From: Aerococcus christensenii
GTDB taxonomy: Bacteria > Bacillota > Bacilli > Lactobacillales > Aerococcaceae
NCBI RefSeq assembly: GCF_001543105.1
Contig: NZ_CP014159.1
Location: 496,001-560,000, forward strand
DNA: 64,000 nt
Direction: 5' to 3'
The translations under genes and the position numbers were made by a program. Numbering within the stretch: position 1 is the first letter of the stretch; each line of letters begins with the position of its first letter. The notes beneath the pieces were generated by a model that saw only the letters and a program-made list of their open reading frames with translations, was not told the origin of the DNA and did no database searches. Positions 8,403-62,281 of the stretch are shown here, one piece after another.

Positions 8403-8430
8403 GTTGTAAGGAATCTCAATTTTTGTACAA

Positions 8431-8477
8431 AAAACGCACAGAGAATAGATTTTCAAGTCTATCCTCTGTGCGTTTTT
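8431..8477. terminator. Bidirectional terminator between convergent amidase and FabK-like genes
   Basis: A long stem (AAAACGCACAGAG..ATAGA pairing with TCTAT..CTCTGTGCGTTTT) with an eight-base loop has A/T runs on both sides. It can therefore serve the plus-strand amidase and the minus-strand reductase gene. Confidence 0.88.
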
Positions 8478-8496
8478 AAATGTTATGTATTTTTAA

Positions 8497-9438
8497 TTAG
8501 AAGGCAGAAAGATTATTCAAAACTTCTTTGGCTTCTGTAACAACGCTTTCGATAATTTCTTTCACTGGACGAATAGCTGTCACATTCCCTGCGACTTGTC
8601 CAATCGTAACGATACCTTCTTCAGTATCTCCTTTGGTCAATGCTTTAACAAGAGCTCCTAAATTCAATTTTTCAAATTCATCTCGGCTCAAACCACCCTT
8701 AATTTGATCTGCTAATTCTTTAACCGCATCACTCTTAATCAAACGAACAGGTGCTCCAATTTCACGGCCAATAACTACCGTATCCGTTAATTGACAATTC
8801 ACAATAGCTTCTTTATATTCTTGTGCAATTGGTGCTTCTTGGCTCGCACAAAATACAGTTCCCATTTGAACACCTTGAGCGCCTAAAGCAAAGGCTGCTG
8901 CCAAACCACGTCCATCACAAATTCCACCTGCAATAACAACTGGAATATTGACAGCTTGGATAACGGCACGTGCTAAAGGAAGAGTAGTTACTTCGCCCAC
9001 GTGACCTCCTGCTTCAGTTCCCTCGCAAACGACAGCGTCTGCGCCAGCATCTTCTACTTTTTGGGCTTGATGTGCATTCGCAACCACAGGAATCACCATA
9101 ATACCAGCTTCTTTTAAAAGTTCAATAAATGGCACAGGGTTCCCTGCTCCTGTCGTCACAATTTTCACGTTTTCTTCTACAACTACCTTAAGAACCTCTT
9201 CTGTCCGATGAGATAAAAGCATGACATTCACAGCGAATGGTTTAGAGGTTATTTGGCGAATTTGGTGAATTTGATCACGAACCCATTTCCCATCACGACC
9301 TGCAGTTGCAAGAATACCCAAACCGCCAGCCTCAGAAACAGCTCCTACTAGAGGCGCTTCAGCAACCGCTGCCATAGAACCTTGGAAAATAGGATACTTC
9401 ACACCTACGACGTCACAAATTGATTTCATATTCTTCAC
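8497..9438 (-). CDS. FabK-like enoyl-ACP reductase II / nitronate monooxygenase family flavoprotein
   Basis: A 313-residue FMN-binding TIM-barrel protein. The N-terminal YPIFQGSMA, VTTGAGNP, EGTEAGGHVG (with the conserved His) and the phosphate-binding VIAGGICDGRG and ALGAQGVQMGT segments are shared by FabK and nitronate monooxygenases. FabK reduces enoyl-ACP in fatty acid synthesis but normally lies inside a fab cluster. This copy is alone with its own promoter. It may therefore be a second enoyl reductase or a nitronate-detoxifying enzyme, and sequence reading alone cannot decide. Confidence 0.82.
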   Translation of the reverse strand: MKNMKSICDVVGVKYPIFQGSMAAVAEAPLVGAVSEAGGLGILATAGRDGKWVRDQIHQIRQITSKPFAVNVMLLSHRTEEVLKVVVEENVKIVTTGAGNPVPFIELLKEAGIMVIPVVANAHQAQKVEDAGADAVVCEGTEAGGHVGEVTTLPLARAVIQAVNIPVVIAGGICDGRGLAAAFALGAQGVQMGTVFCASQEAPIAQEYKEAIVNCQLTDTVVIGREIGAPVRLIKSDAVKELADQIKGGLSRDEFEKLNLGALVKALTKGDTEEGIVTIGQVAGNVTAIRPVKEIIESVVTEAKEVLNNLSAF

Positions 9439-56158: not shown

Positions 56159-56659
56159 TTATTTCAAAGTCACCGTACAAACAATATCACTAACTTGAAC
56201 ATGCCCAGATGCTTCATAATCTAAGTTAGCTATTTTATCTTGGCCATTCGTAAAAACTAAAGCGCAGGTCGTTGAAGCTTCTTCTGACTGACGAATCATT
56301 TCCACATCCATTGTGGATAGTAAGTCTCCCACTTCTACACGATCGCCTTCTTTTACATTGGAAGAGAATGGTTTTCCTTCAAGGTTTACCGTATCAAACC
56401 CTAAATGAAGGAGGACTTCTATTCCGTCATCTGTTGTAATTCCAATGGCATGCTTAGTTGGGAAAACAGTATTCACTCTGCCAGCTATAGGGGCTTTTAC
56501 TCTGCCATCCGTTGGTTCTAAGGCAAAACCATCTCCTAACATTTTTTGAGCAAAGACAGGGTCGCTAACTTCTTCTAGTGGAACAAAATCTCCCTCAACA
56601 AAAGCTCTTACGTTCACTTTTTTAGGTTCTTCTTTCTTTCTCTTTAAGAATTCAAACAT
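56159..56659 (-). CDS. PTS EIIA(Glc)-type phosphocarrier, copy 1
   Basis: A 166-residue Crr-like EIIA. DGRVKAPIAGRV, FPTKHAIGI and the phosphorylated His in VLLHLGFDTVNLEG are all present, as is the EVGDLLSTMD segment. It stands alone. The EIIBC at 57.7-59.1 kb has no EIIA domain, so this protein or its paralogue at 61.8 kb is a likely phosphate donor to it. It could serve other IIBC proteins too. Confidence 0.93.
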   Translation of the reverse strand: MFEFLKRKKEEPKKVNVRAFVEGDFVPLEEVSDPVFAQKMLGDGFALEPTDGRVKAPIAGRVNTVFPTKHAIGITTDDGIEVLLHLGFDTVNLEGKPFSSNVKEGDRVEVGDLLSTMDVEMIRQSEEASTTCALVFTNGQDKIANLDYEASGHVQVSDIVCTVTLK

Positions 56660-60304: not shown

Positions 60305-60333
60305 TTGACAGAAACCGCTTACTCTTGTATTCT
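60305..60333 (+). promoter_or_regulatory. Promoter of the TPP-riboswitch transcript
   Basis: A perfect TTGACA (60305-60310) and TATTCT (60328-60333) with a 17-bp spacer lie directly upstream of the riboswitch. Confidence 0.88.
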
Positions 60334-60337
60334 TAAA

Positions 60338-60422
60338 GTACACGGGGAGCTAGTAAACCAGCTGAGAGGGAAGTGCGACTTCCGACCCACGAACCTGATA
60401 CGGATAATGCCGGCGTAGGAAC
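60338..60422 (+). promoter_or_regulatory. TPP riboswitch (THI element)
   Basis: The conserved GGGGAGC..GCTGAGAGGG, GACCC..GAACCTGAT and CGGATAATGCCGGCGTAGGAA segments are present in order with the expected helices. A terminator follows at 60440-60466, so binding of thiamine pyrophosphate would stop transcription of the methyltransferase gene. Confidence 0.95.
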
Positions 60423-60439
60423 AATAAAGTGAAAGATCT

Positions 60440-60466
60440 GGCAACCGTATAGGGTTGTCTTTTTTG
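60440..60466 (+). terminator. Riboswitch-controlled terminator
   Basis: GGCAACC pairs with GGTTGTC (one G-U) around a short loop, followed by six T residues, between the riboswitch and the methyltransferase start. Confidence 0.85.
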
Positions 60467-60501: not shown

Positions 60502-61218
60502 ATGACTCAATCATCTGCTTTATTTGATGGCTACGCTAACGCTTATGATCAATGGTTTATCACCAATGACAAAGTTTTTGTCAGTGAATTAAAGCTACTC
60601 CATCACTGTTTAAAAGATATCCCTCACGATAAAATTTTATCAATAGGATGTGGAAGCGGGCTATTTGAAGCTGCACTGCAAAAAGAATACGGCATCACTG
60701 TCGAAGAAGGTGTAGAACCTTCCACAGATATGGCTGATATCGCTAAAAAAAGAGGCCTTCATGTCACCATTGGCGATGCCCAAACCACTCCTCTCCCAAA
60801 AGAAACTTATGACATTGTTTATCTCAATGGGTGTTCTACCTACATTCCTGATTTAAAAACAGCCTATCAAAATTGCTTCAGCTCTATTAAACCAGGCGGT
60901 CATATGATCCTACTCGACGTTCCAACTGAAAGTGCTTATGGAATTCTTTACAGCTTTGCACATTTTGCTGGGAGCTATGATGATCCTGTCTTCAAACGTA
61001 TTGCCCCAAGTCTCCCATATCCTATCGAACTCGTTCATTCAGGGATTTTCTATACAACTCCTGAAAAAGAAGACATCGTCAGAGATTATCTTCCAGTCCA
61101 ATCTATTCACTACTATCAAACCCTAGTGAATGATCCTATTTATACTAACGACACCATTGAAGAACCTGTCGAAGGGTATGGAAAAGGTGGATACGTTGCC
61201 ATGATTATAGAAAAATAG
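60502..61218 (+). CDS. Class I SAM-dependent methyltransferase under TPP-riboswitch control
   Basis: A 238-residue methyltransferase. Motif I is KILSIGCGSGLFEAAL (about residues 44-59), the acidic residue after beta-2 is in EGVEPS, and VYLNGC..IKPGGHMILLD covers the later motifs. There is no membrane segment. It is the only gene after the riboswitch and is followed by a terminator, so it is the target of thiamine control. A direct role in making thiamine is not obvious; methylation of a thiamine-related compound or regulation of a transporter are possibilities. The family is broad and gives no substrate. Confidence 0.85.
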   Translation: MTQSSALFDGYANAYDQWFITNDKVFVSELKLLHHCLKDIPHDKILSIGCGSGLFEAALQKEYGITVEEGVEPSTDMADIAKKRGLHVTIGDAQTTPLPKETYDIVYLNGCSTYIPDLKTAYQNCFSSIKPGGHMILLDVPTESAYGILYSFAHFAGSYDDPVFKRIAPSLPYPIELVHSGIFYTTPEKEDIVRDYLPVQSIHYYQTLVNDPIYTNDTIEEPVEGYGKGGYVAMIIEK

Positions 61219-61262
61219 AGAGCCCTTTCTATTTACTCCTTTCAAAATAAAAACCTAACTCT

Positions 61263-61311
61263 AAAAGCTACTCCTTCTACTTTTAAACAAGTAGACAGAG
61301 TAGCTTTTTTT
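61263..61311 (+). terminator. Terminator of the methyltransferase gene
   Basis: AAAGCTACTC..TCTACTT pairs with AAGTAGA..GAGTAGCTTT over about 17 bp, followed by seven T residues. Confidence 0.88.
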
Positions 61312-61320
61312 GGCTTCTAG

Positions 61321-61432
61321 TTATTCAGCTGCTAAATCCAATTGATCATGTAGAGCAGGGTTAGTCATCAATTGATCCATATCTTTATCCCCACGTCCCG
61401 ACAAATTCACCAAAAAATCCTGTATTAGTCAT
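61321..61432 (-). pseudogene. trpB: Collapsed trpB (tryptophan synthase beta) remnant
   Basis: A ribosome-binding site AAAGGAG and ATG start an open frame MTNTGFFGEFVG, the usual TrpB N-terminus, which runs into a stop four codons later. In the next frame the same stretch continues as NLSGRGDKDMDQLMTNP and ends in LAAE and TAA, the TrpB C-terminus. About 350 central residues are missing. The join falls within GTGAATTTG, a sequence plausible at both ends of the gene, which suggests deletion between short repeats. The trp leader and attenuator lie just upstream. Confidence 0.82.
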
Positions 61433-61497
61433 TATTATTCTCTCCTTTCAATACTTATATTCCTACAGATCTAGGTGCCGAATGCCAATGAGACTAC

Positions 61498-61525
61498 AAA
61501 AAAGCCGCATAAGTGCTATGCGGCT
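61498..61525 (-). terminator. trp attenuator terminator
   Basis: AGCCGCATA and TATGCGGCT form a perfect nine-base stem with a five-base loop, followed by six T residues on the minus strand, between the trp leader peptide and the trpB remnant. Confidence 0.9.
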
Positions 61526-61613
61526 GCTTTTAGGGTTCACATCTGGCATAGACTCCCTTTTAATTGAGTCCGTCAATAAAGTGAGCCTAACCGATGAAAG
61601 TTACCTCACTTAA
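61526..61613 (-). promoter_or_regulatory. trp leader RNA with alternative pairings
   Basis: After the leader peptide stop, CTCACTT/AAGTGAG (61605-61611 with 61579-61585) forms a stem, GACTC/GAGTC (61551-61555 with 61566-61570) another, and 61541-61548 is complementary over eight bases to 61618-61625, which includes the second Trp codon of the leader. Which shapes compete with the terminator is not proven. Confidence 0.6.
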
Positions 61614-61652
61614 CTATTGCCAGATTTGCCAGTCTTTCATTTGAAACTTCAT
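61614..61652 (-). CDS. trp leader peptide MKFQMKDWQIWQ
   Basis: A 12-codon frame starts at ATG 61650-61652, eight bases after AAGGAG, and contains two Trp codons in its last five (Trp8 and Trp11). It ends in TAG. It lies upstream of stem-loops and a terminator and of a trpB remnant, the layout of ribosome-mediated trp attenuation. Such control is rare in Gram-positive bacteria, which mostly use T-box or TRAP. Confidence 0.78.
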   Translation of the reverse strand: MKFQMKDWQIWQ

Positions 61653-61683
61653 GATGTGATCTCCTTACTTGTTTTTGATTGTC

Positions 61684-61720
61684 ATTATTTTACAAAATAA
61701 TCCTCACCTTCCTCAATAAA
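61684..61720 (-). promoter_or_regulatory. Candidate promoter with a perfect palindrome upstream of the trp leader
   Basis: ATTATTTT-AC-AAAATAAT (61684-61701) is a perfect inverted repeat. On the minus strand TTGAGG and TAAAAT are 18 bp apart across it. It may be an operator or only an AT-rich promoter core. Confidence 0.45.
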
Positions 61721-61792: not shown

Positions 61793-62281
61793 CTAACTTT
61801 CTTCATTTAAGGTAACTGTACAGACAATATCGCCAGCTTTGACACGACCAAATACTTCATACTCCAAAATAGCACCTTTTTCTGTACCATTCACAAAGAC
61901 TAAAGCACAAGTAATATCTACATTTTCAGCTGAACGAATCGCTTCGATATCCATAGTGGACAAAAGGTCGCCTACCTCTACTTTATCTCCTACTTTCACA
62001 TTTGACCGAAAAGGCCTTCCTCCTAATTCTACCGTATTAAATCCTAAATGAAGTAAGATTTGTAAGTCCTCCTTAGTCTTCATTCCGATCATATGATGGG
62101 TTGGAAATACAAGAGTTATCTCTCCTGCCAAAGGAGATTTTACTCGACCGTCTAAAGGTCTTAAAGCAAAGCCATCACCTAGTACCTTTTTAGAAAATCT
62201 CGGATCACTCACTTGATCAAGTGGGATAAATTCCCCAGCTACAAATGCTCTCACACTTATTCTCTTTTTGGATACACCCAT
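61793..62281 (-). CDS. PTS EIIA(Glc)-type phosphocarrier, copy 2
   Basis: A 162-residue EIIA paralogue of the gene at 56.2 kb. DGRVKSPLAGEI, FPTHHMIGM and the phosphorylated His in ILLHLGFNTVELGG are present. It shows about half identity by eye to copy 1. It is monocistronic as far as can be seen. The two copies lie on either side of the PTS/ChbG module and the trp relic. Confidence 0.92.
   Translation of the reverse strand: MGVSKKRISVRAFVAGEFIPLDQVSDPRFSKKVLGDGFALRPLDGRVKSPLAGEITLVFPTHHMIGMKTKEDLQILLHLGFNTVELGGRPFRSNVKVGDKVEVGDLLSTMDIEAIRSAENVDITCALVFVNGTEKGAILEYEVFGRVKAGDIVCTVTLNEES

Follow-up and report, generated by a model that had tools for sequence, protein, structure and literature searches.

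The leader preceding the trpB remnant of Aerococcus christensenii is very probably the relic of a ribosome-mediated trpB attenuator whose switch has since been lost, and the scaffold on which it is built is probably a leader-peptide attenuator reprogrammed by codon exchange. This reading is carried by leader ORFs, a match between their codons and the downstream genes, covariation, and a predicted change of state, all established by computation. The element is located on the minus strand of the window (the whole stretch of 64,000 nucleotides that was analyzed, positions 496,001–560,000 of contig NZ_CP014159.1) and belongs, as a divergent member, to a scaffold known best through RF04312. RF04312, the trpB motif (SRC-39-1), entered the literature in 2024 as an orphan riboswitch candidate; its more than 900 representatives are located mainly upstream of an uncharacterized amino-acid-type ABC transporter (PMC11109978). 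It was ranked as a strong candidate with covariation, and the published account does not exclude a classic attenuator (PMC11109978).

Leader and attenuator of the window

The leader ORF (61652–61614, minus strand) is translatable and encodes 12 residues, MKFQMKDWQIWQ, with Trp8 and Trp11 as the two cognate codons. Orthologous leaders are found in A. tenax and in a further genome of the genus, G014. Its Shine–Dalgarno region, TAAGGAGATC (61658–61667, minus strand), contains an AAGGAG site. A candidate promoter, TTGAGG-18-TAAAAT (61687–61716, minus strand), agrees with the consensus at 9 of 12 positions and is weak, because such sites turned up 11 times in the scan against an expectation of 7.1.

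The attenuator segments are also on the minus strand. Segment a′ (ATCTGGCA, 61618–61625) consists of the last leader codons and can pair with segment c (61541–61557) at −13.8 kcal/mol. Segment a (61598–61613) has segment b (61575–61594) as its predicted partner in the starvation state (−12.4 kcal/mol); the pairing energies allow b to pair with either a or c, and c with a′, b, or d. The assignments of a′, a, and b are also supported by covariation across the family. The b:c hairpin (−15.5 kcal/mol) is followed by a terminator stem–loop of segments d and e (61525–61503; d:e, −15.7 kcal/mol) with a perfect stem and six T, and then by the trpB remnant. The fold of 61480–61700 is only moderately unusual (z = −2.36), and the plus-strand fold of 61321–61720 is nothing special (z = −1.07). 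The initial annotation had described a Trp leader peptide and attenuator in front of a collapsed trpB, and this anatomy was borne out by the leader ORF, the Shine–Dalgarno site, the terminator, and the trpB ends, all of which were found.

In a permissive Rfam scan, RF04312 was the best, subthreshold match of the element (24.7 bits; gathering score, 59), and the window copy was therefore classified as a divergent relative, not as a member. It has the RF04312 architecture, in which a b:c hairpin and a d:e terminator precede trpB or the gene of an amino-acid ABC transporter. Our own model R1, built from 62 sequences and starting after the first Trp codon with the Trp codons omitted, matched the element with 24.0 bits (E = 0.0036 over the window). 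Another RF04312/R1 match in the window, at 8427–8533, scored above the element on R1 and was rejected as an ordinary gene-end terminator. The T-box model (RF00230) had no match in the window, and the whole window searched against Rfam at gathering scores gave one TPP riboswitch only.

This TPP riboswitch (57.4 bits; 60333–60459, plus strand) has a terminator-like hairpin and stands directly before a gene (60502–61218, plus strand) for a 238-residue protein, methyltransferase-like by resemblance, which is an unusual partner for it. The interval between the trpB remnant and this convergent gene contains a strong hairpin (61262–61308) that has T runs on each strand and is perhaps a two-way terminator. 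Just upstream of the orphan leader is a gene named by resemblance as PTS EIIA-like (61793–62281, minus strand), which is similar to a second EIIA-like gene at 56159–56659 (minus strand).

The trpB remnant

The N-terminal part of the remnant (61402–61432, minus strand) consists of the first ~10 codons, from the trpB start at 61432, and a 9-nt join, GTGAATTTG, at 61402–61410. The C-terminal part (61321–61410, minus strand; VNLSGRGDKD... to the stop) keeps the last ~29 codons up to the remnant end at 61321, in a frame that differs from that of the start codon. Both TrpB termini were found by tblastn with three TrpB proteins, the best E value being 5e-4 for the C terminus. The join is compatible with both trpB ends, which suggests a deletion at a sequence common to the two, as judged from the remnant itself and not against an undeleted ancestor. 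Such an internal deletion would have taken most of trpB and spared the leader and terminator. The collapse of trpB to ends joined out of frame, as originally described, thus stands through both termini, and the join was probably made in shared sequence. No other trpB was found in the genome (best match, 23.9 bits; cut-off, 392), in agreement with the annotated absence of an intact copy elsewhere. A standalone TrpB can salvage indole, and the trpB once controlled by the window leader was probably an indole-salvage gene.

Leaders in the same genus

A search of 60 relatives with the window leader region matched three, of which one was the own genome and one was matched by the trpB start only. G014 has two matching sites (E = 9.9e-16 and 6.2e-12), and the leader of A. 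tenax trpB (CP127381.1) was matched with an E value of 1e-15; the likeness to the G014 and A. tenax sites exceeds chance. The A. tenax leader and that of one G014 site end in SWQKWHRK and precede an intact trpB; that of A. tenax stands alone, no trpA following it in the annotated region. Relatives that keep trpB have also conserved the Trp codons of the leader, as the initial annotation would have it. The leader of the other G014 site ends in SWQGWHRIK and precedes an ascorbate-type PTS operon that has an IS66-like transposase next to it (names by resemblance); the switch of this leader (L005 1501–1671, L211) works in the folding model described below. Three more leaders of G014 are of the Phe/Tyr type (L252, L260, and L282), which brings this genome to six leader attenuators with two specificities.

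A trpB above the family cut-off was present in 8 of the 15 genomes of the genus. The own genome carries a second Trp leader before its trpX transporter gene, with an RF04312 score of 43.5 bits, also below the gathering score of 59. RF04312 searches in the genus at E values up to 10 gave many chance matches and were not used for counts.

RF04312 sites carry Trp leader ORFs

A Trp leader ORF was present at 24 of the 25 RF04312 loci of the family; the last one (L078) is cut by a contig end and was left out. For a larger set of 152 RF04312 sites (95 fetched and 57 from earlier scans), leader ORFs were called by Shine–Dalgarno strength, length, and stop position only, ignoring the residues encoded. 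This rule found an ORF at 151 of the 152 sites, 147 of them with Trp, versus 957 of 3040 random positions of the same loci, of which 253 had Trp. One site (L190) was dropped as a false match, being a terminator that separates a gene from a tRNA-like stretch. After the exceptions were read, 149 of 151 sites had a Trp leader, including two WQSR leaders with weak Shine–Dalgarno sites (L186 and L195) assigned to Trp by eye; the other two have Phe/Tyr or Phe leaders (L198 and L213). Most RF04312 leaders end in WQNWRR or WQSH, and segment a follows the first Trp codon by 19–20 nt in 130 of 147 leaders.

RF04312 was present in 150 of 345 genomes of the order Lactobacillales and in 3 of 398 genomes drawn across the phylum, one of which (G718) is outside the order. 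R1 matched 189 of 295 genomes of the order, often more than once. The initial annotation considered ribosome-mediated trp attenuation rare in Gram-positives; for this order, these frequencies, with a leader ORF at nearly all examined sites, do not support that view. The site in G718 (L213) is a Phe leader of the scaffold before a sodium-dependent transporter. At one locus (L088, G132), a Trp leader is followed by a reverse-transcriptase-like ORF in place of trpX, and the modeled switch is absent. In 80 trpB loci from named genomes, R1 gave no match at E values up to 0.1, and these loci thus added no named species with a leader–trpB unit. A T-box precedes trpB in five of six streptococcal trpB loci (L286–L290), where Aerococcus has a leader peptide, so that the same gene can be under either type of control.

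Pairing and covariation of the segments

In the main alignment (98 rows), segments a′, a, b, c, d, and e occupy columns 60–72, 76–92, 113–126, 159–174, 219–227, and 254–261, respectively. Cognate duplexes were stronger than permuted ones for all five pairings of the model, with z values of −14.0 (a:b), −13.2 (b:c), −7.6 (c:d), −20.1 (d:e), and −11.9 (a′:c) in permutations that leave the relatedness of the rows in. Pairings outside the model (a:c, a:d, b:d, b:e, a:e, a′:b, a′:d, and four with an upstream segment) ranged from −1.1 to +2.3. Permutation was also exceeded by a′:e (z = −4.6) and c:e (z = −3.1), neither of which has a role in the model; the likeness of a′ to d and of c to e may be the reason. 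In the a:b plus c:d state, 89.0% of cells were paired and 12 pairs were changed on both sides (1 of 500 shuffles was as high); in the b:c plus d:e state, 96.5% were paired and 14 pairs were changed on both sides (0 of 500 shuffles). The pair counts were above both the shuffles and the slid controls. Covariation and folding thus agree that the terminator and antiterminator of the family exclude each other.

In the Phe/Tyr and Ile set (52 sites), the same permutation gave z values of −5.4 (a′:c), −6.4 (a:b), −3.2 (c:d), and −8.6 (d:e), with the control a:d reaching −2.7. The b:c pairing showed no covariation there (z = +1.0), c being nearly invariant. Crossing Trp segment a with Phe/Tyr segment b, or the reverse, halved the pairing energy (−6.8 and −6.6 versus −12.6 and −13.0).

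Proposed mechanism and folding model

Here, we propose the working of the switch based on the pairings and a folding model. When the amino acid is plentiful, the ribosome would reach the stop codon and cover a′ and a, and b:c and d:e would form, resulting in termination. Under starvation, the ribosome would halt on the sensor codons, 3–8 codons before the stop, covering a′ and leaving a free; a:b could then form and release c, and c:d formation would permit read-through. Without a ribosome, a′:c may close around the a:b hairpin, and the terminator would form. The amino acid sensed would be named by the sensor codons, which are Trp codons where trpX or trpB follows, Phe/Tyr codons ahead of aroE and a TrpX-like paralogue, and Ile codons ahead of ilvE. 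Codon exchanges in a′ are accompanied by changes in c. We infer sensing, termination, and read-through in cells from this scheme.

The model folds the RNA up to segment d at equilibrium, not cotranscriptionally, with the stretch covered by the ribosome held open. Averaged over 96 sites, the expected number of c:d pairs is 8.4 when the A site holds the first Trp codon, and it falls to 2.9 when the A site holds the stop codon and to 2.7 without a ribosome. The stalled value exceeds the stop value at 93 of the 96 sites (92 with footprints of 8 or 14 nt), and the remaining three have no switch in the model. When the ribosome is moved codon by codon, the number of c:d pairs is highest at offsets −6 to −3 in Trp leaders (7.2–8.0 pairs) and −8 to −3 in Phe/Tyr leaders (8.2–8.9 pairs). 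The sensor codons are placed accordingly: 141 of 157 Trp codons are at offsets −7 to −3, where stalling yields most c:d pairs, and of 251 Phe/Tyr codons, 189 are at −8 to −3 and another 41 at −2. The trpX leader of the own genome switches well (about 6.8 versus 0.4 pairs). The A. tenax trpB leader switches weakly (about 3.6 versus 1.2 pairs), and its value for the second Trp codon is below the stop value.

Sensor codons match the downstream genes

Paralogues of the scaffold were sampled from 38 genomes, mostly picked for at least two R1 matches, and 60 of their 115 matches were fetched. A rule-based leader ORF was present at 59 of the 60 sites, and the other (L261) has a Trp leader by eye. Eight leaders were Trp, 50 were Phe/Tyr (typically FYFSYFR), and two were Ile (IISIIR); given how the genomes were picked and how many matches were fetched, the Phe/Tyr share is not a frequency. 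A first rule for the leader classes, which had placed four Trp leaders in the Phe/Tyr class, was replaced.

Together with the earlier sites and four loci of the genus Aerococcus (L038–L041), these made a set of 215. Trp leaders stand before TrpX (147 sites), TrpB (seven), or no recognized gene (three). Phe/Tyr leaders precede the TrpX-like paralogue (34), AroE (19), and an aminotransferase, a family-3 binding protein, and a sodium-dependent transporter (one each). The two Ile leaders (L272 and L275, in two genomes of one genus) precede IlvE. The match between codons and genes is broken by none of 212 sites, with gene classes assigned by BLAST against references chosen with the leaders already known. 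In NCBIfam, AroE, IlvE, the aminotransferase, and TrpX were above their cut-offs, and one TrpX-like paralogue was below that of TrpX (348 versus 390). In a binding-protein tree of 117 rows made by a quick method, the 26 Phe/Tyr rows form one side of a branch with an SH-aLRT value of 100.

It is likely that a single scaffold, duplicated within Lactobacillales, runs much of the amino-acid control of the order as a programmable switch. Its leader codons would pick the amino acid (Trp, Phe/Tyr, and Ile so far), compensating changes in c would keep the logic, and RF04312 would be the Trp branch. Transporter specificities may then be inferred from the leader type, e.g., Phe/Tyr for the TrpX-like paralogues.

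Fate of the orphaned copies

In the window copy, a′:c, a:b, b:c, and d:e can all form. The c:d pairing is the weakest (−9.2 kcal/mol versus −13.5 and −12.9 in two relatives), and the expected number of c:d pairs is near zero in all four modeled states; a working switch is thus not predicted for this copy. The window copy looks like a decayed relic because the antiterminator no longer forms in this simple model. The control region had been annotated as intact, which is confirmed for the leader and terminator but not for the alternative stems: all of them can be drawn, but c:d forms in no modeled ribosome state.

A comparable loss was found in a second genus (g33). One genome (G110) keeps the leader and trpB (L095), and in two others (G103, L114; G049, L091) trpB at the same locus is deleted to its last ~12 codons, with the leader and terminator spared. 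These deletions are joined at a 9-nt stretch common to both ends, GAACAARTA, and are independent of that in the window. The modeled c:d pairs, stalled versus stop, are 5.0 versus 3.5 in L095, a weak switch, 2.0 versus 3.1 in L114, and 3.0 versus 3.3 in L091. In the orphaned copies the switch has thus lost its direction, the stalled value no longer exceeding the stop value. With the switch lost in the window copy and its direction lost in both orphans of the other genus, the earlier idea of a Trp-responsive short RNA that still works finds no support in the model. A short terminated leader RNA might nonetheless be produced from the window copy.

Alternative explanations

RF04312 could be a riboswitch, as published, with tryptophan or some other small molecule as its direct ligand and the short ORF as a by-product. 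We consider this highly improbable. The strong-candidate listing, the more than 900 representatives, and the reported covariation (PMC11109978) speak for direct binding, as does the covariation of b:c and d:e confirmed here. Yet the published motif begins after the leader ORF, which is present at all 151 of the sites retained, and a stop-proximal segment of this ORF, a′, pairs with c. The sensor codons vary with the downstream gene and the stall positions fit them, and a classic attenuator was left possible by the RF04312 authors (PMC11109978).

The remaining alternatives concern the window copy. It is very unlikely that the trpB remnant is an artefact of the assembly or of a single isolate in a species that normally has trpB here: although one genome of the species was examined, it is a single contig, 99.97% complete, and an equivalent deletion arose independently in another genus. 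A function in trans, with the terminated leader RNA or the 12-residue peptide as a small regulator, is unlikely. It would explain why the leader ORF, Shine–Dalgarno site, and terminator are intact with no gene on the same strand before the hairpin and the convergent gene, and why orphan leaders occur in two genomes of a second genus. The leader block of L091 is 92.4% conserved relative to L095, the adjacent upstream stretch 82.4%, and the stretch farther upstream 90.0%, which could reflect constraint and count against a pure relic. In L114, on the other hand, the leader block has three changes in 197 nt, one of them in segment b, versus three in 370 nt upstream, and the antiterminator of the window copy is lost in the folding model. 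We prefer the relic of a trpB attenuator.

Comparison with known systems

If this reading is true, the mechanism is settled for an orphan riboswitch class of more than 900 published representatives, and leader-peptide attenuation is common in an order of Gram-positive bacteria. The scaffold would be a natural series in which one RNA is reprogrammed by codon exchange and compensating pairing changes, transporter substrates would be predictable from eight leader codons, and the window copy and the second-genus orphans would show the fate of a switch once its gene is lost. In the openly available articles searched, we found no paper that describes RF04312 as a leader-peptide attenuator or its Phe/Tyr and Ile forms.

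The attenuator of the Escherichia coli trp operon combines Trp codons in a leader peptide with stems that exclude each other and an intrinsic terminator. The Trp leader peptide, exclusive stems, and intrinsic terminator are common to the present scaffold and to the classic trp attenuators, which include those of Corynebacterium and Streptomyces (PMC1262725). In contrast to these, the scaffold has six segments and uses a′:c plus a:b, so that starvation is read by freeing a, and it is common to Trp, Phe/Tyr, and Ile leaders in one order.

Leader-peptide attenuation is already known in Firmicutes, i.e., from the His leader peptide of bacilli (PMC2965389) and from Rli60. Rli60, the ilv attenuator of Listeria monocytogenes, is ribosome-mediated, was initially interpreted as a riboswitch or small RNA, and has superattenuator mutants (PMC5864092). 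Likened by description only, it is also a ribosome-mediated attenuator in Firmicutes, but it serves one amino-acid class at one locus. The ilvB-II uORF motif of Corynebacterium is likewise a riboswitch candidate that was later reclassified as a leader ORF (PMC11109978); it has branched-chain codons, belongs to another phylum, and is not multispecific. An earlier genome survey by the RF04312 laboratory also contains uORF motifs (PMC8632094). T-box leaders (RF00230) resemble the scaffold in that a single RNA architecture takes its specificity from one codon-like element and controls amino-acid genes of Firmicutes, but they read uncharged tRNA without a ribosome. RF04312 as published shares the b:c hairpin, the d:e terminator, and the position before an amino-acid-type ABC transporter or trpB, and its description has no leader peptide; in our analysis, it makes up the 3′ half of a more extensive attenuator that includes a′, a, and a coding sensor.
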